Shown here in pieces: positions 14,397 to 33,599 of a stretch of DNA of 33,836 bases; the first letter of the stretch is position 1, and every line of letters starts with the position of its first letter. The DNA lies in assembly GCA_025350905.1 (NCBI GenBank), contig JANXWY010000114.1, forward strand, positions 1 to 33,836, given 5' to 3'. The position numbers and the translations under genes are program-made. Source of the DNA: Verrucomicrobiota bacterium. GTDB lineage: Bacteria; Verrucomicrobiota; Verrucomicrobiia; Limisphaerales; JADLHS01. The notes beneath the pieces are model-generated. The model did no database searches, was not told the DNA's origin, and worked only from the letters and a program-made list of their open reading frames with translations.

Positions 14397-17300
14397 ATGA
14401 AGGAAGAAGTTGGTCAGCCTCCCCCGCCCGCCATGGCTTACAAATTTGCGGTGTATACACTCATTGGCTACGGCTGCCTGGCCGGAGGTTCCGCAGACCC
14501 GCTCGCCGCCGGCTTGGAAGCGCGGACCACAGCCATGCCGGTGAATCGAACGATCCCGCAAGTCGCACCGCCGAAATCGGTCTTGGAGTTCTCGACCAAT
14601 CCTACGGCCCAGGAATTCTTCCGCGCGCGGGTTTTCGAGGAGCCGCTGGTCCCAGTTGGCGGCGTGCCGGATAAGGACGAGAACATCGCCCTGGCTGCCG
14701 CCTTGATCGGCTATTCGCAACGCACCAGCCCGGATGACTTCTCCAGTCTGACTGGCTTCTTGGAAGCCCATCCAACTTCTGCGTGGAACGCGGCGCTGCT
14801 CACTGACCTCGGTCTCGAATACTACAATACCGCCTATTACTCCCGCGCCTTGGCGGCCTGGAGCGGGGCTTGGTTGCTGGCCAAAGACGCTACCGACGTC
14901 AATGGCAAGGCTATTGCCGACCGGGCGGTGGGTGAACTAATTGCCATGCATGCGCGCCTAGGGCACATGGCTGAGGTGGCGAGCCTGCTGAACTCCATCG
15001 AGGTACGGCCCCTCTCGGGCCCAGCCACCGAACGGGTTGCCAACGCGCGCGGCGGCCTCGCGGACATGCAGGAGCGTCCGGAGATCTCCTTTCGCTGCGG
15101 CCCGCTCGCACTGCTCAGGATTGTTCTTGCATCCAAGCCCGAGAAGGCGTTCGAGGTGACCCCGATCATCCATGGCTCGGCCTCCACGCAGCGCGGTTTC
15201 TCATTGAGCCAGGTGGCTGAACTCTCGCAGAAGATCGGGCTGAACTATCAGATGGCTCGCCGTTCGCCGGGCGCGGCGTATATCGTGCCATCGGTGGTGC
15301 ATTGGAAAGTGGGCCATTACGCGGCATTAATCCGACAAGAGGGAGACCGCTATCTGCTTCAGGACCCCACCTTCCGGAACGATGTCTGGGCCACCCAGGC
15401 GGCATTGGACGAGGAGACAAGCGGTTATTTTGTGGTGCGATCGGGCAAGTTGCCGGCGGGTTGGAGCCCGGTTGAAACCGCGGAAGGCGGCACGATCTGG
15501 GGTAAAGGCAACGTGGGCGGACCCGATTCCGGTGGAGGCGGGGCGGCTACTCCACCTTCCCCTTGCAAGGGAATGGCGGTTTCCAGCGCGGATTTATTGT
15601 TTGTCAGCCTCACGCTCTCTGACAGCCCGGTCGGCTATTCGCCGCCGGTGGGGCCGCCCGTGCAGTTCACCGTGCGCTACAACCAGCGTGACGCGACGCA
15701 ACCGGCCCTCTTCACCTATTCCAACTTTGGACCGAAATGGACGTTCGATTGGCTTGCCTACATCACCGACAACCCGTTGAGCCCAAATGCGGATGTCCTG
15801 TATTACCGTGTGGGCGGTTTCGCTCGCGTTTTCACCGGGTTCAACCCGGTTACCCGGACCTTTGCGCTTCAAATGTATGACCGAACTCGATTGACGCGCA
15901 TTTCCGCCAACAGTTACGAAATGGTTTCGGGAGACGGTTCCAAGCTGGTGTTCAACCAGCCGGATAGTTCCACCGGCACGTCGCGCAGGGTGTTCCTGAC
16001 TCAGATCGTTGACCCCGCCGGCAACGCTGTGACTCTCACCTACGATGGCTTGCTCAGATTGGTGAGCGTCACCGACGCCATAGGCCAGGTCACCACGCTT
16101 TCGTACTCGAACCCGACCGACACTTACAAGATCACCAGAGTGACCGACCCGTTCGGGCGGTTTGCGATCTTCGACTACGATGCCACCAACCGGCTCAATA
16201 AAATCACCGATGTCATCGGACTTACCTCGCAATTCACTTATGACTCAGGCAGTGATTTCATCAACGCACTCACGACGACTTACGGCACCACCAGCTTTAC
16301 GAAAGCCGAGATCGGCACCACCCGTTCATTGGAGACGCTTTACCCGGATGGCAATCGGGAGCGGGTGGAATTCAACCAAACCACGAACACCGGCATCGCC
16401 ATGGTAGAGGCGCTGGCGAGCGTGCCGACCGGCCTGGCCACGCACGATGACTATCTGATCTATCGCAACACTTTTTTTTGGAGCCGCACCGGCTGCGCCA
16501 CGGGTTACGGGGATTACACCAAGGCGCGGATTTACCATTGGCTGCACACCGCCGATTACACATCGGCAGCGGCCAACCTTGAAAGCACCAGGGCCCCGTT
16601 GGAGGGGCGCGTCTGGTACAACTACCAGGGCCAAAACGATACCATCGCGGTCGGTGTGAATAATCTTCCCACCCGCATCGGTCGGGTATTGGATGACGGC
16701 TCAACTCAGCTTCGCACCTATGCCTACGATGGATTTGGTCATGTGACAAATAGTGTTGATCCGGTCGGCAGGACGTTCAGCTACCTGTACTCGACCAATG
16801 GCATTGACCTGCTGGAAGTCCGACAGACCCGGGCCGGAAATAATGAGTTGCTCACGAAGATGACCTACAACAACCAGCACCTTCCTCTTACCCGGACCGA
16901 TGCTGCCGGTCAGACCACCACGTTCACTTACAATGCGCGGGGCCAACTGCTCACCACCACCAATCCCAAAGGCGAGACGACCGCGAACACTTACGACCCC
17001 AACGGGTATCTGATCTCCGTGGACGGACCCTTGCCGGGAACAAACGATCGCGTAACCGCCACCTACGATGCCTACGGCCGCGTTCAAACCAAGACGGACG
17101 TGAGCGGCTACACGCTCACGTTCAATCACGATGCGCTGGATCATCTCCTCAAGATCACTCACCCGGATTCCACCTTTGAACAGTTCACCTATGATCGGCT
17201 TGATCCGGTTGTGATCCGGGACCGGGCGGGACGTCAAACGTTGCTGGAATACAACAATGTGCAGCAAATGACGAAGCGGACGGATCCCCTGGGTCGGGTC

Positions 17301-19223
17301 ACGCGGTTTCAATGGTGCACCTGCGGGGATCTCAGCAGCCTGACGGATCCATTGGGCCGCACGACCTTTTGGAACAAGGACGTCCAGGGGCGCGTCACGA
17401 GCAAGCAGTACGGCGATGGATCGCAGATCCAGTATTTTTACGAGAACACCACCAGCCGGGTTCGGGAAGTCATCGACGAAAAGCAGCAGGTCAGCCTGTT
17501 CGTATTCAATCGTGATGATGCACTAAAATCCACCGCCTACGCCAAAGCTGCCGTCTCAACCCCGGGGGTCAGTTACACCTACGATTCGGATTACCAAAGA
17601 GTTTCCTCGATGACCGATGGGACGGGAACTACCCTTTACACCTATAACCCGGTCACTGCCTCGCCGACTTTGGGGGCGGGTCAACTTGCCAGCGTTGACG
17701 GTCCGCTGCCCAATGACACGATCACCTACGGCTATGATGAATTGGGACGGCGCATCAGCACCGCCATCAACGGCGTCGCTTCCACGGTGACCTTTGATGC
17801 GGCCGGTCGTATCACCACCGCAGCCAACGCGCTGGGAAGTTTTGGCTACGACTATGATGGCGCCTCTTCCCGGATGGTTTCCGAAACATTTCCTAACGGC
17901 CAGACTGCTGCGCGAAGCTACGGCGGCAACCTGGCCGACAAAGAACTTCAGCGGATCACGTATACCGTGGGTGCGACGCCCGTTTCGGAATTCCTGTATG
18001 GCCGTGACATTGCCGCTGCGCGGATCACGAGTTGGTCTCAGCAAGCGGGAGCGCAGCCCCCCTCGACCTACAACCTGGGGTACGATGCCGCTGATCAAAT
18101 TGTCTCAGCGGCCGTCACCAATTCGGGGGCGCTTATCAATTCTTTCGCTTATAACTACGACCCGGCCGGGAACCGTTTGGGAGAACTGGCAGCCGGCGCT
18201 ACGAACAGCGCAACGTACAACGCGCTGAACGAACTCACGACAAGCACCGCGTCTGCAGTATTGCATACCAACGAATGGGACGCCGCCAATCGGATCGTCG
18301 CCGTAACCGCCGGGAACAATCGCACCGAGTTCATTTATGACGGCATCGGCCGGGTGTCGAGTCTTCGCATGCTCACCAACGGATCGGAAGCCTCACTCCG
18401 CCGGTTCCTGTGGTGCGACAATGACCTTTGCGAGGAACGCGATTCCTTGGGCGCCGTCACCAAGCGCTTCTTCCCGCAGGGCGTCAGGCTGGAAACCGGG
18501 CCGAACGCCGGGAATTACTTTTACACCCGTGATCACCTTGGCTCGATCCGCGAGGTGACCGATAGCGGTGGCAATGTGCGTGCCCGGTATGCGTACGATC
18601 CTTTCGGGCGCAGGACCAGGTTGGCGGGGGACTTGGAGGCCGATTTCGGCTTCACCGGCTTGTTCTGGGTGAATGAGGCTTCGCTTTGTCTCGCCCGCTT
18701 CAGAGCCTACGATCCGGAATTGGCGCGCTGGCTGTCGCGTGATCCATTGCGCAAGGCGGAACAAAGGGAAGGTCCCAATCTATATGCCTATGTGGTTAAC
18801 AATCCTATCAACAAAACAGACCCTCTCGGTCTTGCTCCATGTTGCGAGTTCGAGCGTCAAGCGCTTGAATTCTTACGAAGGGAATGCTCGCGGGTTGGGC
18901 ATCTGATGGAGAAAAGGTGTGAATTAGCGAAATCCTACACCCCTGAAATCGCCGAGAAAGAATGCGATCGCGCATTCGACGGGGCAAACGACTACTGTGA
19001 TATTGTCAAGGCCCAGACTTCGAAGGCAGCCCAAAAGTATTTCGATTGCCTGATCGCACCCGAGTGCGAATCGACTCCCTGCAATTCTGCTTCGCCGTCA
19101 CGTGCCAGTTCGCCGCCGCCGAAAGAGAGTGGTTACGGTCCTATGGGCGAGTTCTCCGCCGTGGGTTCATCGGCCTACTCCAGTGGCAACGTCATCCACA
19201 TGACGGTTACGCATGGTCCCTGA
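14397..19223 (+). CDS. Giant Rhs/YD-repeat protein with N-terminal C39-like peptidase domain
   Basis: This 1608-residue protein is probably exported. A hydrophobic segment (about residues 14-33, YKFAVYTLIGYGCLAGG) looks like a signal peptide, and the true start could be the ATG at 14433. Residues about 95-220 are helical and TPR-like (LGLEYYNTAYYSRALAAW). Residues 230-345 resemble a C39 cysteine peptidase: FRCGPLAL (C234), VGHYAAL (H307) and LLQDPTF (D323) form a plausible triad. A Gly/Pro linker (about 369-392) leads to the Rhs shell with many YD repeats (for example YDAYGRVQTKTD, FDYDATNRLNKITD). The core ends with YDPFGRRTR, RFRAYDPELARWLSRDPL and NLYAYVVNNPINKTDPLGL. After DPLGL comes a 129-residue tail with nine cysteines and no recognised toxin motif. 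No immunity-like gene follows; the next gene is a giant surface protein. Confidence 0.9.
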   Translation: MKEEVGQPPPPAMAYKFAVYTLIGYGCLAGGSADPLAAGLEARTTAMPVNRTIPQVAPPKSVLEFSTNPTAQEFFRARVFEEPLVPVGGVPDKDENIALAAALIGYSQRTSPDDFSSLTGFLEAHPTSAWNAALLTDLGLEYYNTAYYSRALAAWSGAWLLAKDATDVNGKAIADRAVGELIAMHARLGHMAEVASLLNSIEVRPLSGPATERVANARGGLADMQERPEISFRCGPLALLRIVLASKPEKAFEVTPIIHGSASTQRGFSLSQVAELSQKIGLNYQMARRSPGAAYIVPSVVHWKVGHYAALIRQEGDRYLLQDPTFRNDVWATQAALDEETSGYFVVRSGKLPAGWSPVETAEGGTIWGKGNVGGPDSGGGGAATPPSPCKGMAVSSADLLFVSLTLSDSPVGYSPPVGPPVQFTVRYNQRDATQPALFTYSNFGPKWTFDWLAYITDNPLSPNADVLYYRVGGFARVFTGFNPVTRTFALQMYDRTRLTRISANSYEMVSGDGSKLVFNQPDSSTGTSRRVFLTQIVDPAGNAVTLTYDGLLRLVSVTDAIGQVTTLSYSNPTDTYKITRVTDPFGRFAIFDYDATNRLNKITDVIGLTSQFTYDSGSDFINALTTTYGTTSFTKAEIGTTRSLETLYPDGNRERVEFNQTTNTGIAMVEALASVPTGLATHDDYLIYRNTFFWSRTGCATGYGDYTKARIYHWLHTADYTSAAANLESTRAPLEGRVWYNYQGQNDTIAVGVNNLPTRIGRVLDDGSTQLRTYAYDGFGHVTNSVDPVGRTFSYLYSTNGIDLLEVRQTRAGNNELLTKMTYNNQHLPLTRTDAAGQTTTFTYNARGQLLTTTNPKGETTANTYDPNGYLISVDGPLPGTNDRVTATYDAYGRVQTKTDVSGYTLTFNHDALDHLLKITHPDSTFEQFTYDRLDPVVIRDRAGRQTLLEYNNVQQMTKRTDPLGRVTRFQWCTCGDLSSLTDPLGRTTFWNKDVQGRVTSKQYGDGSQIQYFYENTTSRVREVIDEKQQVSLFVFNRDDALKSTAYAKAAVSTPGVSYTYDSDYQRVSSMTDGTGTTLYTYNPVTASPTLGAGQLASVDGPLPNDTITYGYDELGRRISTAINGVASTVTFDAAGRITTAANALGSFGYDYDGASSRMVSETFPNGQTAARSYGGNLADKELQRITYTVGATPVSEFLYGRDIAAARITSWSQQAGAQPPSTYNLGYDAADQIVSAAVTNSGALINSFAYNYDPAGNRLGELAAGATNSATYNALNELTTSTASAVLHTNEWDAANRIVAVTAGNNRTEFIYDGIGRVSSLRMLTNGSEASLRRFLWCDNDLCEERDSLGAVTKRFFPQGVRLETGPNAGNYFYTRDHLGSIREVTDSGGNVRARYAYDPFGRRTRLAGDLEADFGFTGLFWVNEASLCLARFRAYDPELARWLSRDPLRKAEQREGPNLYAYVVNNPINKTDPLGLAPCCEFERQALEFLRRECSRVGHLMEKRCELAKSYTPEIAEKECDRAFDGANDYCDIVKAQTSKAAQKYFDCLIAPECESTPCNSASPSRASSPPPKESGYGPMGEFSAVGSSAYSSGNVIHMTVTHGP

Positions 19224-19295: not shown

Positions 19296-22200
19296 ATGAG
19301 CTTATTTGCAATCCTATCCGCAAGGCGCCAGACCGGTGTGAGTCGCCGGACAACGACAGCGGTGACAACGGTCTTGGTCGCGCTGGTTGGGTTTGCCCGT
19401 GCCACAGCGTCACAGTTCGCCTTTGATCCCAACGGCAATCTCCTGGCTCAAACGGCAGAAAACGCCGCCCTCCCCATGATCATCAGCCAGCCACAGCTCC
19501 AATTGGCCATGCCAGGCGCCCTGACGTCTTTTTTCGTCGTGGCGGCGGATACGCGCGGCCTCGCTTACCAATGGGAGTTCAACGGCACGAACATCTTGGG
19601 CGCGACCGGCGATGCCTTGCTCCTGACCAATGTTGGAGCTACCAATGAAGGCCTGTATTCGGTCGTCCTGAACAACAGTTCGGGCAGCGTGACCAGCGCA
19701 CCGGCGGCGCTAATGATTGACAGCGATGGCGACGGCCTGCCCGATTCCTGGGAAATTGCCCACTTCGGTAATCTGAACCAGACCACCACCGGCGATTTTG
19801 ATCATGATGGCGTTTCCAACCTGCAAGAGTTTTTGGACGGCACTGATCCGGCCAACACGGCATCGGCTCTGTTCCGGCTCACCATCCTGAAAGATGGAGG
19901 ATCCGTTCAGACGGTTCCGTCCCAAGACACCTACACCAACGGCCAAATCGTGACGCTCACCGCGACCCCCCTCACGCCAGAGACTTTCCATTTGTGGACG
20001 GGAGACCTTCTCGCGCAAAGCAATTCCATTACCCTGGTCATGACCTCGAACAAAACGGTGTTCGCCCACTTCACCTCCGTGGATTTCCTCTGGACCAATG
20101 CTGCGGGCGGCGACTGGAACGTGGCTTCAAATTGGCAACTCAATTTCGTCCCGGGCCCGGATGACAATGTCATCATTACCACGGCCGTCACCATTACCGT
20201 GAATAGCAACGCCGAGTGTAAGAACCTCACCTTTGGGGCCGCCGGAGTTGCGCCGACTCTCACCGGGACCGCCACGTTGGCCGCCCACGGAAACTGTGCC
20301 TGGACAGCGGGCACGATGAGCGGAAGCGGGCGGACGGTCATCGCTGCGGGCGGTTCATTGATCATGGCTAATCCTGCTGCGGTTTATTTGGATGCGCGGA
20401 CGTTGGAGAATGGCGGGACGATACTCTGGACGGGGGCAGGGAATTGTTATCCGAGCTCCGGGGCGGTGATCACCAACCGCCCGGGAGCCTTGTTTGACGT
20501 CCGAGGCTTAGGTTCACTCATCGGGTCGCCGGGCACGCCAACACGAATTGACAACGCGGGCCTATTTCGCAAATCGGTAAGCGCGGCAACGATGGCAATT
20601 GGGGCTGCGTTCACCTACGCCCTGCCGTTTAACAACTACGGCACGGTGGACATCCAGAGCGGGGACGTGGCCTTTAGCGGTGGCTTAAACAACGGCGATA
20701 TTCTCGTGGCGAATAATGCGACCTTGAATCTGGCGGTCTTCGTGTTCGGCACGTTCACTTCGCGCTCGAACTCGAGCATTACAGGTGCGGGAAATCTCAC
20801 TTGCAGCAGTGGGTTCAGCGACCTGGGCGGCTTGGTCAATGTCAGCGGACCAATGACGCTCACCGGGAACAATCCCACTGTGAACTTTGGTGGGGCGGTG
20901 TTCTGTACCAATAACACGCTGAGCATTGACAACGGCACGGTGAACTTCAACGGCACGGGCACGATCGCTCCCGCCGTCGTGAACCTGACCGGCGGCACGT
21001 TGGGCGGCAGCATGGTGGTCACGGTCGAAAATGCCATGAGCTGGACCGCCGGCGGTATGGCTGGAACCGGGCAGACGATAATTCCCCCCGGTGTCACCCT
21101 GACCATCTCTAATTCGAGTTCGGTTTCGCTGGCCAGCCGGACCTTGGAAAACGGCGGGACGGTACTCTGGACGGGGGCGGGGAATTTTTACCCGAGCGCC
21201 GGGGCCGTGATTACTAACCGCGCGGGCGCGCTGTTCGACGTGCAGGGCTCGGCTTCTTTTATTACCTCGGGGGGCACGCCAACACGAATTGACAACGTGG
21301 GCTTATTTCGCAAATCGGTAAGCGCTGCAACGACAGTGTTTGGTGGTGCGTTCTCCTCCGCCATGCCGTTTAACAATTACGGCACCGTGGACATCCAGAC
21401 CGGCGGTCTGGCCTTCAACAGTGGCTTAAACAACGGCGACATTCTCGTGGCGAATAGTACGACCTTGAATCTGGCGGTCTTCGTTTTCGGCACCTTCACT
21501 TCGAGCGTGGGTTCGCGTATCACGGGTCCGGGAAATCTCACTTGCAGCGGTGGATTCAGCGACTTGGGCGGCTTGGTCAATCTCAGCGGACCGATGACGG
21601 TCACGGGGAACAATCCTACCGTGAACTTCAGTGGGACCGTATTCTGCACCAACAACACGTTGAGCATCGACACCGGCACAGCAAACTTCAACGGCACGGG
21701 CACGGTCTCGCCCGCAGTGGTGAACCTGACTGGTGGCACGTTGGGCGGCAGCATGGTAGTGACGGTGGGGCATACCATGAGCTGGACCGCCGGCGGCATG
21801 AACGGCACCGCACAAACGATCATCCTTCCCAATGCTTCGTTGACCATTAACAACGCGACCCCGGTTTCGCTAGTCGGCCGGACGTTGGAAAACGGCGGGA
21901 CGACAGTCTGGAGCGGCGCGGGTGAATTTTACCCGAGCGCCGGGGCCGTGATTACCAACCGCGCTGGCGCGCTGTTCGACGTGCAGGGCGCGGCTGCCTT
22001 TCGGGGTTCACCCGGCGCGGTCCCACGGATTGATAACGCGGGCACCTTCCGCAAATCGGTGAGCGCGGGAACAACCGTCGTCGGCCCGATTTACCCGGTC
22101 TCGTTTAACAATTATGGCACATTGGACATCCAGAGCGGCGTTCTGCTGGCGAACAGCGGTTATTTCTGCTCCTCGAACAGCTTTTTGAATTGCGCCCTGT

Positions 22201-23336
22201 GGGGCACAACCGCGGGAGCCACCTACGGTCAGCTTCAGGTTCCCGGCACGGTGAACCTGAACGGAACGCTCAGCGTCAACTTGACGAATTATTACGTTCC
22301 CGCCACCAACGACACCTTCGCGGTTGTGAGCGCGGGCACGCTCAACGGCGCGTTCGCCGGTTTTGTCTATCCGTCGAACCAGGTCACCCTGTCTTTAAGC
22401 AATGCCATCACCGCCGAGGTTGTCCGGGTTTTGGGGGTCACCACCTCCCAGGCAGTCCCGCTGCCGCCTCCCCCTGGCATCATCAGTTGGTGGCGGGCGG
22501 AGAATAACGCGCTGGACGCCGTCGGCACGAACCACGGGGCGCTGACGAATGGAGCAACGTTCTCGCCTGGCGAGGTTGGGCAGGGTTTTCTTTTGGACGG
22601 AACGGCCGGTTACGTCGTTATTCCGGATTCGCCCAGCCTGCGGCCTTCTTCGGTGACGGTGGAGGCCTGGGTAAAAATCTTTTCGACGACCGGCACCCAG
22701 CTGGTTTTCGCCAAGCCCATCGGTCCGGCCACCCTGGATTCCTTCGGGTTGGCGCTGGCCAACGGCGCGCCCCTGGCCGCGATTTCCGACGCGAACGGAT
22801 TTGGGACCTTTGTTTCCACCGCCACGCCACTTCCGCTGGGACAGTGGAACCACCTGGCGTATTCCTTTGATGGAAACACCCGGCAGGAATCGCTCTACGT
22901 CAACGGAGCCATGGTGGCTTCCGCCAACGCCGGCAAATCCATGGCCTTCGACACGCATCCCTTGCTGTTGGGCGCCGATATTGAAAACGGGGTCCCTGGC
23001 CTTTTTCTCAATGGCCAGATCGACGAGGCTTCCATTTACAATCGGGCCTTGGCAGCAAGCGAGATTGCGGCCATCTACAATGTAGGTTCCGCCGGCAAAC
23101 AGCTCTTATCCGTTAGCCTGCCCGTCCTGTTAACGCCGCAGCTTTTCGGGACCGACGTCCGGCTGGTCTGGACAGCCATCTCGAACACCTCGTATCGGTT
23201 GGAGTTCAATCCCGACTTGAGCGCTTCCAACTGGATTGTGCTTCCGGGCGATGTGATCGGACTCAGCAACACCGCCAGCAAACTCGACACCCTGACTTCG
23301 AGCAACCGTTTCTATCGCGTCCGCGTGGTCCCGTAA
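19296..23336 (+). CDS. Giant secreted Ig/TSP3/InlB/LamG surface protein with long tandem repeats
   Basis: The protein has 1346 residues. The order seen is: signal peptide (about 1-38, RRTTTAVTTVLVALVGFARATA); a YD-like stub (FAFDPNGNLLAQ); an Ig-like domain (about 60-145); a calcium-binding TSP3-type stretch (DSDGDGLPDSWE, then DFDHDGVSNLQEF); an InlB/Flg_new-type beta repeat (about 195-263). Next is a beta-solenoid-like region (about 270-1050) with three homologous blocks of 247 residues, each with RTLENGGT, YPS(S/A)GAVITNR and RKSVSA. A LamG/concanavalin domain follows (about 1062-1270, GIISWWRAENNALD). It ends with a short domain finishing SSNRFYRVRVVP. It is an adhesin or glycan-binding extracellular protein. 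It starts 72 bp after the Rhs gene on the same strand, so coexpression is likely. Confidence 0.9.
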   Translation: MSLFAILSARRQTGVSRRTTTAVTTVLVALVGFARATASQFAFDPNGNLLAQTAENAALPMIISQPQLQLAMPGALTSFFVVAADTRGLAYQWEFNGTNILGATGDALLLTNVGATNEGLYSVVLNNSSGSVTSAPAALMIDSDGDGLPDSWEIAHFGNLNQTTTGDFDHDGVSNLQEFLDGTDPANTASALFRLTILKDGGSVQTVPSQDTYTNGQIVTLTATPLTPETFHLWTGDLLAQSNSITLVMTSNKTVFAHFTSVDFLWTNAAGGDWNVASNWQLNFVPGPDDNVIITTAVTITVNSNAECKNLTFGAAGVAPTLTGTATLAAHGNCAWTAGTMSGSGRTVIAAGGSLIMANPAAVYLDARTLENGGTILWTGAGNCYPSSGAVITNRPGALFDVRGLGSLIGSPGTPTRIDNAGLFRKSVSAATMAIGAAFTYALPFNNYGTVDIQSGDVAFSGGLNNGDILVANNATLNLAVFVFGTFTSRSNSSITGAGNLTCSSGFSDLGGLVNVSGPMTLTGNNPTVNFGGAVFCTNNTLSIDNGTVNFNGTGTIAPAVVNLTGGTLGGSMVVTVENAMSWTAGGMAGTGQTIIPPGVTLTISNSSSVSLASRTLENGGTVLWTGAGNFYPSAGAVITNRAGALFDVQGSASFITSGGTPTRIDNVGLFRKSVSAATTVFGGAFSSAMPFNNYGTVDIQTGGLAFNSGLNNGDILVANSTTLNLAVFVFGTFTSSVGSRITGPGNLTCSGGFSDLGGLVNLSGPMTVTGNNPTVNFSGTVFCTNNTLSIDTGTANFNGTGTVSPAVVNLTGGTLGGSMVVTVGHTMSWTAGGMNGTAQTIILPNASLTINNATPVSLVGRTLENGGTTVWSGAGEFYPSAGAVITNRAGALFDVQGAAAFRGSPGAVPRIDNAGTFRKSVSAGTTVVGPIYPVSFNNYGTLDIQSGVLLANSGYFCSSNSFLNCALWGTTAGATYGQLQVPGTVNLNGTLSVNLTNYYVPATNDTFAVVSAGTLNGAFAGFVYPSNQVTLSLSNAITAEVVRVLGVTTSQAVPLPPPPGIISWWRAENNALDAVGTNHGALTNGATFSPGEVGQGFLLDGTAGYVVIPDSPSLRPSSVTVEAWVKIFSTTGTQLVFAKPIGPATLDSFGLALANGAPLAAISDANGFGTFVSTATPLPLGQWNHLAYSFDGNTRQESLYVNGAMVASANAGKSMAFDTHPLLLGADIENGVPGLFLNGQIDEASIYNRALAASEIAAIYNVGSAGKQLLSVSLPVLLTPQLFGTDVRLVWTAISNTSYRLEFNPDLSASNWIVLPGDVIGLSNTASKLDTLTSSNRFYRVRVVP
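20224..22170 (+). repeat. 741-bp tandem repeat inside the surface-protein gene
   Basis: Equivalent CGG codons of the RTLENGGT motif lie at 20397, 21138 and 21879, exactly 741 bp (247 codons) apart each time. Copies 1 and 2 share long near-identical stretches, such as GGCACGCCAACACGAATTGA and CGCAAATCGGTAAGCGC. Copy 3 is partial and more diverged at its end. The repeat is in frame and gap-free between copies. Confidence 0.88.
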
Positions 23337-30342: not shown

Positions 30343-30621
30343 TCACGCCAGCCGATCCAACTGCCGCGCCAGCTTAAAATCCTTCTCCGTGAGTCCGCCC
30401 TCGCTGTGCGTTGTGAGCGTGAGCGTGACCTGGTTCCAGCGAATATCAATGTCGGGATGATGCCCGGCCTGCTCCGCGCGCCGGGCCACCGTGTTGACGA
30501 ACTGAATCGCGGCGGGGAAATCCTTGAAACCAAAGGGGCGGGTAATGCTGGCGCCCATTTTCTTCCATTTCGGCACGGTAGCGAGGGCGGACTTAATTTG
30601 GACGGCATTGAGTTTTGGCAT
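30343..30621 (-). CDS. phhB: 4a-hydroxytetrahydrobiopterin dehydratase (PCD/DCoH)
   Basis: This 92-residue enzyme dehydrates 4a-hydroxy-tetrahydropterin, recycling the cofactor of aromatic amino-acid hydroxylases or of molybdopterin-type pterins. The family core is complete: W-K (PKWKKMGASITRPFGF), FVNTVARRAEQAGHHPDIDI with the catalytic His pair, and VTLTLTTHSEGGLTEKDF. The length is typical. No phenylalanine hydroxylase gene is in the window. It starts 15 bp after the GYF_2-TM2 gene, so it is likely the end of that transcript. A link with the membrane genes is only positional. Confidence 0.92.
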   Translation of the reverse strand: MPKLNAVQIKSALATVPKWKKMGASITRPFGFKDFPAAIQFVNTVARRAEQAGHHPDIDIRWNQVTLTLTTHSEGGLTEKDFKLARQLDRLA

Positions 30622-30636: not shown

Positions 30637-31119
30637 CTAAAACCATTCCTTACGGCCATCCACGTAAATCCGAACAAATTCCTCATCCGACTTGGTCAGG
30701 TAAATAATGCCTTCGATCAGGGCAATGACATGCATCACGACCCCGCCCATCCCGCAAGTCAGCAAGGTGACGAGCAGCATGACGATCCCCGTGCCGGTGT
30801 AACCGAGGATGAATTTGTGGACGCCCAGCGAGCCGAGCAAAATGCCACAGACGCCAGCCGCGATCTTGTTGGAAGCGCGATTCGCCAGATGTTGCGCCGG
30901 CGGCGGGGTCAGAGGCGGGGGCGCCGATGTCCTCGGCGGCTGGGTGGCGGCAAGGTCGCTGCCAAACTCCGGCCACGCGTGCAACGGTTTCCAGTCGGTG
31001 GCGCCTTCGGGTTGGGCGAGCGTTTGCCCATTCACTCGGTTTTCCGCAATCCAACGTTTGATCTGGTCGGCGCCCACCGGGCCGTAGCACTGACCATCCG
31101 TGCCGATGATTTTATACAT
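30637..31119 (-). CDS. GYF_2 domain plus TM2 domain membrane protein
   Basis: The 160-residue protein starts with a GYF_2 domain (residues 1-55, MYKIIGTDGQCYGPVGADQI, then LAQPEGATDWKPL). A Pro-rich linker (about 58-78, PPRTSAPPPLTPPPA) leads to a TM2 domain with two helices (about 82-140, AAGVCGILLGSLGVHKFILG, then GIVMLLVTLLTCGMGG). The conserved TM2 pattern G-x-G-x-H-K/R-F-Y/I-L-G is present. GYF domains are known to bind proline-rich peptides; GYF_2 in bacteria is uncharacterised. An AGGTGA ribosome binding site precedes the ATG. It is the third of three GYF_2 genes in the cluster. Confidence 0.88.
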   Translation of the reverse strand: MYKIIGTDGQCYGPVGADQIKRWIAENRVNGQTLAQPEGATDWKPLHAWPEFGSDLAATQPPRTSAPPPLTPPPAQHLANRASNKIAAGVCGILLGSLGVHKFILGYTGTGIVMLLVTLLTCGMGGVVMHVIALIEGIIYLTKSDEEFVRIYVDGRKEWF

Positions 31120-31194
31120 GACTCACCTTATCGATTTACCGTCACTGGCGCATTTTCCGTCGCCGGAGACAAAATGCCAGTCTGAAGTTGACGC

Positions 31195-31578
31195 CTACCT
31201 GATGTGCGGCGGGGGCATGGCCGCAAACGCCGCCGTCGTGTTCCGCCGCGCTTCGCGAACCAGACCGATACTGGTCACGAGCGACCAGCCCCAAGCCGCG
31301 AGGAACAACCCGGCACCGATCTCCGCGAGCCAGGCGATGGGTGTCACCGCAACATCTCCGGTGATCTGACCGTAATACTGACGCAGCAAGGCCACAAACC
31401 ACCCCAGGACAAAACCAAACCCAGCCACCGCCAAAATCAGCTGCCCGACGCCCACCACCAGCCGGCCAGCCATAAGCGTCCCGAGTCCGGGCGTGGCCAG
31501 CAGATTGACGAGCACAGCGTTGCGGGCGGCAGTGGAGCTAAGGGGTTTGCGGTCGCGCCGCCGAGAAGATGGTTTCAT
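31195..31578 (-). CDS. Small membrane protein of the GYF_2 cluster, unknown
   Basis: This 127-residue protein has a basic N-terminus (KPSSRRRDRKPL) and three hydrophobic stretches: about residues 22-36 with 40-65 (LVNLLATPGLGTLMAGR, then AVAGFGFVLGWFVALL) and 80-105 (AWLAEIGAGLFLAAWGWSL). The first part, with its glycine-rich P-G-L-G-T-L-x-A-G-R, recalls TM2-like hairpins, but assignment is uncertain. Its start overlaps the 3' end of the upstream GYF_2 gene by 41 bp in another frame, showing tight coupling. Confidence 0.72.
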   Translation of the reverse strand: MKPSSRRRDRKPLSSTAARNAVLVNLLATPGLGTLMAGRLVVGVGQLILAVAGFGFVLGWFVALLRQYYGQITGDVAVTPIAWLAEIGAGLFLAAWGWSLVTSIGLVREARRNTTAAFAAMPPPHIR

Positions 31579-32500
31579 AGGCGTACATCAAGGCCGCAAT
31601 GCCGATGGGCATGGAGAAAAGCAGGCCGACACAACACAAGAGGGCTCCTCCCAAGTTGATCAAGCCAACGAGTACGATCAGGCCGAAAAGTTGCCACCAA
31701 TGTTTGCGCACCATCTTCCAGCTCGTCTGCATCGCCGGCCAGAAATCCATGCGCTTGTCCAAAATCAATGGCAGGACGAAAATCCAGTTCACGGTCAGAA
31801 AGATAACTGGCAGCAAACTGACCAACCCGACACCGACAGCGATGACCACCGCGACCAGATTGGGTTGTTGGTGGTGGGTAAGCGACGGCAAAAGCGTTAC
31901 TAACGCCACGATGACCACGGGTATAAAGCACAGAGCGGCAAGAATGGTGCTAATGATATAACCCAGGATGAGTTGTATGTATGACCGACGAAAACCTTCA
32001 AACAGATCCCCGCTGGTGGCCGGTTGGCCACGTACCGCTAGCATTGTGACGTAGAAAAGTCCGCCCCACAACGGTACCGTCACAAAAAGACTCAGCAGCG
32101 AAAAGAGGGGACCAATGAGCGGAATGACTCCGAGCAAAGAAAACGCGATGCCGATACCGAGATAAATCAGCGTTATGCTGACCAGCAGGCCCAGGTTTTT
32201 TTGCACCAAATTCCAGCCCTGGCTGATACACCCGCCGAGGTCCAAATCATAATCGCGTTCCAAAATCTCCGGCGCCACCCCGGTCGCCCCGGCGGCAGCA
32301 AACGGCGGCGGCGGGGCCGGCGACTTGGCCGCGAGGGCTTCGGCGAATTCGGGATAGTCGCCCACCGGCCGCCAATCGGTCTGGCCCTCGGCCTGGACGG
32401 GCGTGGCCGCGCCGGCGCGGCCCTGTTGAATCCATTCGCGCAATTGGTCGCCGCTGACCGGACCGTATTCTTTTTTATCGGCGCCGATGATTTTATACAT
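31538..32500 (-). CDS. GYF_2 domain plus multi-helix membrane protein
   Basis: This 320-residue protein has an N-terminal GYF_2 domain (1-55, MYKIIGADKKEYGPVSGDQL, then VQAEGQTDWRPV). A short Pro/Ala linker (about 60-75) leads to a region of about six transmembrane helices (about 95-310). These resemble the uncharacterised membrane domains found in glycerophosphodiesterase-associated or DUF975-type proteins (CISQGWNLVQKNLGLLVSIT, then MDFWPAMQTSWKMVRKHWWQ). The frame is open further upstream, but the ATG at 32500 gives the exact GYF_2 start shared with its paralogues. No ribosome binding site precedes it. The 27 bases before the ATG are a (CCAAC)5 tract. The downstream gene overlaps its end by 41 bp. 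Confidence 0.85.
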   Translation of the reverse strand: MYKIIGADKKEYGPVSGDQLREWIQQGRAGAATPVQAEGQTDWRPVGDYPEFAEALAAKSPAPPPPFAAAGATGVAPEILERDYDLDLGGCISQGWNLVQKNLGLLVSITLIYLGIGIAFSLLGVIPLIGPLFSLLSLFVTVPLWGGLFYVTMLAVRGQPATSGDLFEGFRRSYIQLILGYIISTILAALCFIPVVIVALVTLLPSLTHHQQPNLVAVVIAVGVGLVSLLPVIFLTVNWIFVLPLILDKRMDFWPAMQTSWKMVRKHWWQLFGLIVLVGLINLGGALLCCVGLLFSMPIGIAALMYAYETIFSAARPQTP

Positions 32501-32527
32501 GGTTGGGTTGGGTTGGGTTGGGTTGGC
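32501..32527. repeat. (GGTTG)5 / (CCAAC)5 pentanucleotide tract abutting a start codon
   Basis: Five copies of GGTTG and two extra G run directly up to the CAT (minus-strand ATG) at 32500. On the coding strand the ribosome binding region is therefore CCAAC repeats, with no purine-rich Shine-Dalgarno sequence. The upstream DUF2752 gene ends 35 bp before the ATG. Confidence 0.92.
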
Positions 32528-32535
32528 TAGAAGGT

Positions 32536-33000
32536 TTACGGGGACATCCAAGCGAAGGCCGGCCCCGGCACATTTCGCAACACCCCGAAGGCAATGACGA
32601 TGGCGCCAATCGCCCAGGCCGTGGCCGGTCGCCGCAACCGGGAGGTGGGGAAAGGTGAATCGCGCCGCCAGCCTTGCTGGCGGATCCAGGTCAAAACCAG
32701 CAAGGTGAGGGCGACGATCAGCAGCGGATTGCAATGCAGCGCGGCGCGGAACTCGCCGTGCGTCAGATGGTGCAGCGCGCGCAATGAACCGCAGCCGGGG
32801 CAATTCAGGCCGGTCAAGGCATGAAACAGGCAAGCGGGATAAAACCGGTGTTCCGTCGGGTTGAAGTAATGGAGGATCCACGCGGCGGCGCCGAGCGCAA
32901 GGACCAAACTCCAACGAAACTGTTCGAGCCGGGGCCATCGCGTGCGAAGCACTGGGGGCACGCGAAGCGCCTCGTGGGTCGATGGGCAGCCGGGTTTCAT
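32536..33000 (-). CDS. DUF2752 membrane protein
   Basis: The 154-residue protein has the DUF2752 core: ACLFHALTGLNCPGCGSLRA, then LHHLTHGEFRAALHCNPLLI. That is, C-P-x-C-G-x2-R, then H-G-x3-A-x2-C/N-P. Hydrophobic segments flank it (about 34-50, 88-105 and 127-145). The invariant cysteines sit on the membrane face and may bind metal or redox partners (inference from conservation). ATGA overlap with the upstream GYF_2 gene (start 33000, stop of the other at 32997) indicates translational coupling. DUF2752 genes are, from general knowledge, often near TM2 genes, as here. Confidence 0.88.
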   Translation of the reverse strand: MKPGCPSTHEALRVPPVLRTRWPRLEQFRWSLVLALGAAAWILHYFNPTEHRFYPACLFHALTGLNCPGCGSLRALHHLTHGEFRAALHCNPLLIVALTLLVLTWIRQQGWRRDSPFPTSRLRRPATAWAIGAIVIAFGVLRNVPGPAFAWMSP

Positions 33001-33599
33001 TGGAAGGCCGCCTTCACTTCCGGCTTCGACAACACGACGAGGGCCCAGATGCCAGCGCCGACATTGACACAACAACAACAAGCGCCGCACGGCAGGAGCA
33101 TCAGGAGGGCGGAGGTCAAAGCCAGCCCATAGGATTTGAGTTTCAGCATGCGGAGCGACCCGAAGAGGCAGACTAGGGCGATCGCCAGACCCGCGGCATT
33201 GGTGGGCAGACCGAAGAGGAGGGAGAGTTGCCGCTGAAGCTCCACATTCTGTTGTGGCAAATTCGGTAGCGCCAGGAGTGGCGTCGGCAAGCAAGACATC
33301 ACAATTCCCAGCAGGCTGGCGAGGATATCGAGGAGGGCAAGGACCAGCAGAAAAATTGCCGGGCCGCGAACCAGTTGGAGCGCGGCCGCGGAGTCGGCGG
33401 CGGGCGTCACCGGGAATATCGCGGGGATTCCGGTGGCGGAGGCGAGTTCCGGCACTTCCCGCAACGGCTTCCAATCCCCGTCGCCCTCGAGTCGCACCCG
33501 CGTGTCGGAGTTCACGCGACCTTCGGTGATCCACTGGCGCAATTGTTCACGGCTGACCGGGCCGTATTCCCGTCCGTCTGCCCCGATGATTTTATACAT
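32997..33599 (-). CDS. GYF_2 domain plus four-helix membrane protein
   Basis: This 200-residue protein has an N-terminal GYF_2 domain (1-55, MYKIIGADGREYGPVSREQL, then VRLEGDGDWKPL) and a short linker. Four hydrophobic helices follow (about 80-104, 128-145 and 150-190). The last two carry a cysteine cluster (LLPCGACCCCVNVGAG), which is unusual and may be lipid-modified or metal-binding. It is the first visible gene of the membrane cluster, preceded by AGGA 10 bp before the ATG. It overlaps the DUF2752 gene by four bases. The region upstream of it holds no gene to the right window edge. Confidence 0.85.
   Translation of the reverse strand: MYKIIGADGREYGPVSREQLRQWITEGRVNSDTRVRLEGDGDWKPLREVPELASATGIPAIFPVTPAADSAAALQLVRGPAIFLLVLALLDILASLLGIVMSCLPTPLLALPNLPQQNVELQRQLSLLFGLPTNAAGLAIALVCLFGSLRMLKLKSYGLALTSALLMLLPCGACCCCVNVGAGIWALVVLSKPEVKAAFQ

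Follow-up and report, generated by a model that had tools for sequence, protein, structure and literature searches.

We analysed a contig of a Verrucomicrobiota bacterium (order Limisphaerales; assembly GCA_025350905.1, contig JANXWY010000114.1) over its full length of 33,836 nucleotides, hereafter the window, in which five membrane protein genes, designated A to E, lie on the minus strand between positions 30637 and 33599 (Table 1). Three of the proteins carry a GYF_2 domain, which is combined with four transmembrane helices (4TM) in A, six (6TM) in C and a TM2 domain in E; B is a DUF2752 protein and D belongs to no Pfam family. A preliminary description of this DNA had recognised five membrane genes on one strand, three with GYF_2 and one with DUF2752, and both the positions of the genes and these four domains were borne out, Pfam placing GYF_2 in A, C and E and DUF2752 in B. 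The overlaps it gave for two junctions, 4 bp between A and B (ATGA) and 41 bp between C and D, were also recovered, as were the proline-rich linkers of two GYF_2 members, namely C and E. We report here on the conservation of this gene set in the order and on a short proline motif, PPx[I/L], in the tails of the DUF2752 and D proteins, which is a candidate ligand of the GYF_2 domains.

Table 1. Positions of the five genes, their proline motifs and the adjoining gene in the window.
Feature	Position	Strand	Description
gene A	32997..33599	-	200 aa; N-terminal GYF_2 (residues 1-53) and helical Cys-rich membrane part (PCGACCCC)
gene B	32536..33000	-	154 aa; DUF2752, three transmembrane helices, CPGCGxxR motif
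VPPVL tag, B N-terminal tail, residues 14-18	32947..32961	-	candidate GYF_2 ligand
gene C	31538..32500	-	320 aa; GYF_2 and about six-helix membrane domain (GPDPase_memb / BPSS1780-like)
gene D	31195..31578	-	127 aa; membrane protein without Pfam family; conserved N...PGxGSLMAGR...G..Q
MPPPHI tag, D C-terminus, one residue before end	31201..31218	-	candidate GYF_2 ligand
gene E	30637..31119	-	160 aa; GYF_2, Pro-rich linker, TM2 domain
APPPL in Pro-rich linker of E	30910-30924	-	sequence
pterin-4a-carbinolamine dehydratase (PCD)	30343..30621	-	15 bp after E; Pfam 112.4 bits; syntenic neighbour, outside the system

The GYF_2 family (PF14237; cut-off 25.8 bits) was matched by A with 54.9, by C with 39.1 and by E with 36.5 bits, DUF2752 (PF10825; cut-off 27 bits) by B with 67.3 bits, the C..CG..R motif being present, and TM2 (PF05154; cut-off 27.9 bits) by E with 42.5 bits. 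C matched GPDPase_memb with 33.7 bits (cut-off 29.6), covering 74 of 321 profile positions, and the NCBIfam model BPSS1780 with 41.8 bits, under its cut-off of 90. The eukaryotic-type GYF family (PF02213; cut-off 25.7 bits) reached 20.9 bits in A and the GltJ equivalog model (NF033761; cut-off 450 bits) 13.6 bits, while CD225 / dispanin (PF04505) gave no match in any of the five window proteins at E <= 1, nor did the anti-phage defence models of PADLOC at E <= 0.1. D had no Pfam match below E 0.78. Its similar register made D a candidate TM2 protein, which we rejected, as none of 15 members matched TM2 and the profile match to the family of E was weak (probability 2.9%); the comparison of D with the DUF2752 profile was weaker still.

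Judged from gene content, the set is conserved across Limisphaerales rather than grouped by chance, because three of the seven GYF_2 copies in the source genome (6.27 Mb in 489 contigs) lie within 2.7 kb at the cluster and the arrangement recurs across the order. Of 57 genomes of the order, which fall into 46 families and, sharing ancestry, are not fully independent, 56 yielded GYF_2, 50 DUF2752 and 44 D, with a single copy each of the latter two. Local profiles built from few seeds (E 0.001, small set) served to annotate the surroundings of every DUF2752 gene (50) and every D gene (44). A GYF_2 gene is located on the same strand near 43 of the 50 DUF2752 genes (gap of at most 437 bp) and near 40 of the 44 D genes (at most 637 bp), and some loci without this neighbour sit at contig ends. 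D and DUF2752 share one stretch in 27 of the 44 genomes with D, fewer than the 40 that have GYF_2 beside D. The co-occurrence in other genomes, named in the preliminary description as a check, was thus observed.

In a draw of 213 genomes from the phylum, D was matched in five, namely the source genome and four weak cases; a draw of equal size gave 103 genomes of 213 with DUF2752. By these profile matches D is nearly confined to the order. Three of the four stretches with weak D-like genes outside the order were annotated with the local profiles: L179 and L180 keep the weak D-like gene and have no GYF_2, and no D, GYF_2 or DUF2752 was detected by these profiles in L178. The membrane domain behind the GYF_2 head is exchanged among loci, being TM2, CD225 (L039, Pfam; e.g. 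L039:7541-8038), DUF4190 (L046, Pfam), 4TM or 6TM. At L108:2238-3221 (G034), D is continuous with GYF_2-TM2 in a single open frame and may be fused to it (D-GYF_2-TM2), which would bring ligand partner and head into one protein. At L173:3964-4611 (G053), D shares one open frame with a PCD-like sequence, possibly by fusion or through a missing stop.

The proline motif first became visible in the alignments of DUF2752 and D, whose tails are otherwise variable. In DUF2752 it is situated near the N-terminus (e.g. VPPVL, VPPRI and VPPRL); in D it is C-terminal (VPPRIST, KPPKLT, IPPKIR, KPPVIH) or, in some genomes, in the N-tail instead (TPPPIEQ, PPPISG, RPPKIL). At most about 45 residues were taken as a tail, and the choice of start codon for B is uncertain where frames overlap. 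In the census of the order, PP.[IL] was present in 23 of 50 DUF2752 N-tails (5000 shuffles: mean 2.7, maximum 11; reversed motif 5) and in 29 of 43 D proteins (5000 shuffles: mean 3.6, maximum 11; reversed motif 2), the D of G034, in frame with GYF_2-TM2, being excluded from this strict count of 43 instead of 44. With PP.[ILV] and slightly different limits of the tails, the counts were 23/50 and 30/44. At least one PP.[IL] tag occurs in 34 of the 42 genomes having both genes. As for the position in D, PP.[ILV] was found in 18 of 27 C-tails (shuffle mean 2.2) and in 4 of 27 N-tails (shuffle mean 1.2). A PP.[ILV] tag in the C-tail of D lies 0-13 residues from the end. The D of G053, in frame with PCD, had its tail cut at 30 residues; L049 and L054, whose GYF_2 clusters lack both B and D, contributed no tail, and L177 was left out.

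The 58 PP.[ILV] matches in the tails of B and D end in I (28), L (28) or V (2), and at x they most often have P, R, V or K. The codons for both prolines and for I/L vary across 57 matches, which indicates a constraint on the protein rather than a DNA signal. PP.[ILV] occurs in 20 of the 43 DUF2752 tails of the order with GYF_2 neighbours (shuffle mean 3.6; 0 of 2000 shuffles reach the count). Outside the order, it occurs in 2 of 41 DUF2752 tails without GYF_2 neighbours (shuffle mean 1.2) and in 0 of 7 beside GYF_2 of other subtypes. Control tails from other membrane open reading frames in the same loci, picked by hydropathy, carry it in 0/24 C-tails and 3/34 N-tails, and the C-tails of GYF_2 proteins in 2/93. 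In hold-out loci fetched after the motif had been defined, it was found in 10 of 13 D and 4 of 6 DUF2752 proteins; here the D of L142 was scored by eye, and the D of L149 is identical in tail and coordinates to that on the contig of G020 (L175). The B tag was more frequent where D is absent (6/7 versus 17/42, Fisher p 0.04), a single nominal test that carries no weight here.

Both tails of D are positively charged, with on average 4.0 K+R versus 1.1 D+E in the N-tail and 3.4 versus 1.7 in the C-tail of 42 proteins, and would thus both point to the cytosol. The occurrence of the D tag in the N- or the C-tail, depending on the genome, fits a movable linear motif and the placement of both tails on one side of the membrane; from the charge and this alternation we infer that the tails lie in the cytosol. 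For DUF2752, the density of K/R was 0.18 in the loop between the second and third transmembrane helices, 0.105 in the N-tail, 0.07 in the Cys loop and 0.04 in the C-tail, which fits an orientation with the N-terminus inside and the three invariant cysteines outside, the signal of the N-tail being modest. The family alignments comprised 27 sequences for A and 40 for DUF2752, and in the latter C57, C67, C70, G71, R74 and N91 are invariant; the trio of cysteines with the Arg and Asn, probably on the outer face, suggests a metal or disulfide site. The AlphaFold2 model of B had a mean predicted local distance difference test score (pLDDT) of 87.8.

The heads were compared in an alignment of 63 of the 72 listed GYF_2 domains, from which nine (the other subtype and two from L049) had been excluded, so that invariance refers to the chosen cluster subtype. 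Y12, G13, P14 and W43 are invariant, and I4, G6, D8, W23, R28 and E51 are kept in at least 90%. Searched against the Protein Data Bank (PDB), the profile of these domains matched the GYF domain of GltJ (E 0.0006) and, more weakly, CD2BP2 (E 0.012), and the sole sequence match of A at E <= 1 was likewise the GltJ (AgmX) GYF domain (E 0.003). A stretch of 21 residues in CD2BP2 (YGPF...W) aligns with the YGP...W segment of the cluster GYF_2. By this register, Y12 and W23 correspond to Tyr17 and Trp28 of CD2BP2, which are ligand contacts. Phe20 and Tyr33 of CD2BP2 are replaced by Val and Arg, so that the aromatic ligand pocket of eukaryotic domains, with Tyr after the Gly, was not found complete.

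The AlphaFold2 model of A (mean pLDDT 89.2, about 90 in the GYF head) was matched by Foldseek, with probability near 1, to Smy2-peptide, GIGYF1-TNRC6C, GltJ and chains of the chloroplast TIC complex, presumably TIC56, and the matches include 3fma and 7ruq, GYF structures that were determined together with a partner peptide. PMC13132833 lists TIC56 as one of the plant GYF genes. In PSIG1, Y575A, or W570A together with Y575A, abolishes binding to a PPGF partner according to the available text of PMC5657617, and by their spacing we take W570 and Y575 as the Trp and Tyr positions of the pocket. As to the peptide groove, which the preliminary description had named as a further check, the picture is mixed: the prediction of the GYF fold is of good confidence, and the domains retain the Tyr of YGP and the helix Trp but not the two further aromatic residues. 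Half of the pocket thus appears to be kept and half remodelled, which fits a non-PPG ligand and could also mean that binding was lost. At the seven DUF2752 loci outside the order that have GYF_2, none of the 11 copies belongs to the cluster subtype, and all lack both the Tyr before GP and the helix Trp. Other subtypes, such as QLGxF, are seen at L062, L069, L070, L089, L092, L133 and L135, where DUF2752 has no proline tag.

Outside the order, DUF2752 has partners of a similar kind. Among 47 such loci, hand-picked from the matches of the phylum draw, mostly high scoring and from different genera, 31 have, on the same strand and no more than 300 bp away, a gene for GYF_2, TM2, CD225, DUF4190, 4TM or 6TM, and 16 do not, according to the local profiles. 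Pfam assigned CD225 to 17, Zn_Ribbon_1 to 13, GYF_2 to 6, TM2 to 5 and DUF4190 to 4 of 33 such partners, which had been preselected by their local-profile label, so that these counts show domain make-up and not frequency. Four of six matching plasmid records were opened: TM2 stands beside DUF2752 in those of Monoglobus (DUF2752-TM2) and Streptomyces (TM2-DUF2752-TM2), and no TM2 was found beside DUF2752 in those of Tsukamurella and Rhodococcus. In our reading, these loci encode a membrane core whose cytosolic head, either a zinc ribbon or GYF_2, can be exchanged, and GYF_2 appears to be a head particular to one lineage, set on a module that is older.

We consider it rather likely that the five proteins form an assembly in the inner membrane, in which the cytosolic GYF_2 heads of A, C and E would grip PPx[I/L] tags in two places, the N-terminal tail of B and one of the tails of D. 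This docking, a predicted binding, would hold the assembly together on its cytosolic side, and the heads may also bind Pro-rich linkers, their own or each other's, in a contact that would compete or inhibit. DUF2752 and hairpin proteins of the TM2/CD225/DUF4190 type, which make up the membrane core, would predate the GYF_2 heads, in place of which zinc ribbons are often found elsewhere in the phylum. It is from the genes and their conservation, the tags, their enrichment and the predicted fold that we infer both the binding and the single complex. The mutual binding proposed in the preliminary description would accordingly be placed at the tags of DUF2752 and D; the linkers, though enriched, are not the main ligand candidates. 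A wider version, in which the order has its own GYF-peptide code, with paralogous heads on interchangeable membrane proteins reading the DUF2752 and D tags and plugging into an older DUF2752-dispanin module, is conceivable, and we lean slightly towards doubting it.

Several observations weigh against such docking. No PP.[IL] tag is present in 8 of the 42 genomes with both genes, and it is missing from DUF2752 in 25 and from D in 13 of the 42; neither tag is therefore obligatory. PP.[ILV] also occurs in 3 of 7 DUF2752 tails of the order for which no GYF_2 was found in the stretch, all three being near a contig end. DUF2752 tails average 24.7 residues in the order and 17.7 and 6.7 outside it, and the shorter tails there have a lower chance of a motif match. 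In the heads, Arg stands at position 28 in at least 90% of the 63 domains where eukaryotic GYF has Tyr, by a one-residue ungapped extension, and the main GYF matches of Foldseek have E-values of 0.09-0.3, none below 0.001. For the DUF2752 model, the best PDB match of the fold search had E 2.1. The cluster subtype of GYF_2 is also present in other families of the class, as stand-alone genes with neither D nor DUF2752 beside them.

Some of these points would be expected if the genes encoded co-transcribed membrane proteins with independent functions, the heads being solubility or folding modules and the proline tails the disordered termini of GC-rich genomes. Proline-rich linkers do follow the heads (PPP in 29 of 94), and the clusters lose and swap members with no tag being universal. 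We nevertheless regard this explanation as unlikely, since shuffled tails, the reversed motif and the control tails all fall short of the observed motif rate, and neither the preference for I/L over V (56 to 2) nor the place of the tag at the extreme C-terminus of D suits it. The linkers raise another explanation, namely that the heads bind linkers in the same or like proteins, resulting in self-inhibition or homotypic chains, with the B and D tags serving another receptor. PP.[ILV] is indeed found in 35 of 94 linkers against a shuffle mean of 11.9, and self-inhibition by an own ligand has been proposed for PSIG1 (PMC5657617, in the text available). The near confinement of D to the order that has the cluster GYF_2 subtype, and the lack of the B tag at all seven loci with other subtypes, where the tails are short, speak against it, and we hold it to be quite improbable. 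Still less probable, in our view, is a GltJ-like switch, in which the membrane GYF_2 proteins would recruit a soluble proline-tagged partner such as a polarity or motility regulator and the cluster members would be receptors only. It draws on GltJ being the sole PDB sequence match of A; the GltJ model score is far under its cut-off, and no GTPase or motility gene was recognised beside the cluster, where Pfam covered PCD, galactokinase and a few neighbours in relatives and the remainder of the window was judged by eye.

A galactokinase gene, like PCD, is located downstream of the cluster (Pfam), and a PCD homologue was found by BLAST in 6 of 19 stretches compared from relatives. A Glycos_transf_3 (TrpD-like) gene is often located upstream in relatives (7 of 19 fetched stretches by BLAST, three of them Pfam-checked). 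The window, being the whole contig, ends about 240 bp upstream of A, so that the 5' neighbour of A lies beyond the contig end in the source genome. An Rfam scan of the window gave nothing at gathering scores. Read by eye, positions 14397-19223 encode a large Rhs/YD-repeat-like protein of 1608 aa with a short C-terminal part beyond the repeats, and the adjoining gene at 19296-23336 a protein of 1346 aa with repeated blocks and a LamG-like end.

Several known systems resemble the cluster in part. The heads share their fold and the YGPx..Q...W segment with the eukaryotic GYF domains of CD2BP2, Smy2, GIGYF and PSIG1, and the spacing of the tag equals that of the PPGF ligand of PSIG1 given in the available text of PMC5657617. 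Unlike in those domains, x of the ligand is mostly a residue other than G, the Phe of GPF is Val and the Tyr of GYF is Arg, and the heads are borne by membrane proteins whose operon also encodes their proposed ligands. GltJ (AgmX), a membrane protein that belongs to the gliding machine of Myxococcus xanthus (PDB 7z3c), has a bacterial GYF domain and is the nearest solved sequence, but no gliding gene was recognised beside the cluster. GltJ is named an effector of MglA (PMC12288465). Another bacterial membrane protein, Bd0075 of Bdellovibrio, has a GYF-like domain in the cytoplasm and a predicted partner, Bd0474, the interface predicted template modelling score (ipTM) of 0.619 falling in the authors' grey zone; it differs in its TPR domains outside, and the available text describes no GYF_2/DUF2752 cluster or proline-tag family (PMC12034629). 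The GAP1-N2 conflict systems of planctomycetes contain paired GYF domains fused to a TM-rich region or a trypsin, as far as the accessible text goes (PMC7159879), but no such GTPase system was recognised at the cluster, and PADLOC gave no match. The gene sets of DUF2752 with CD225 (dispanin) or TM2 are alike in that the partner adjoins DUF2752, and differ in that their heads are often zinc ribbons (13/33) and the proline tag is rare.

The literature searched, from which most subscription papers are absent, contained no paper that names DUF2752, pairs any of DUF2752, the TM2 domain and the GYF domain, or joins GltJ with GYF. Among the matches listed, none describes this cluster or tag in the text available, PMC12034629 giving a predicted partner for a bacterial GYF protein. 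CD225 proteins act on SNARE-dependent fusion in animals (PMC11730294), and mycobacterial IFITMs put in human cells restrict influenza virus, their bacterial role being then unstudied according to the available text of PMC4488726. Because CD225 proteins act on membrane fusion in animals, we guess that the assembly may be a scaffold shaping or stabilising the membrane; the guess is a good deal more likely to be wrong than right, and the docking rule is the firmer claim.

The cluster is a variant of known themes, namely GYF-type recognition and DUF2752-dispanin gene sets, and not a categorically new system. What is new is a specific, quantitatively enriched ligand candidate on the two partners without GYF_2; the mutual binding proposed in the preliminary description is plausible. 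A joint evolution of such domains with their linear ligands is not known to us from any other operon of bacteria. DUF2752, TM2, GYF_2 and bacterial CD225 occur widely, and what they do in bacteria seems to have received little study. The tags turn five uncharacterised genes into a specific binding question, for which Y12, W23 and PPx[I/L] would provide a handle on the complex.

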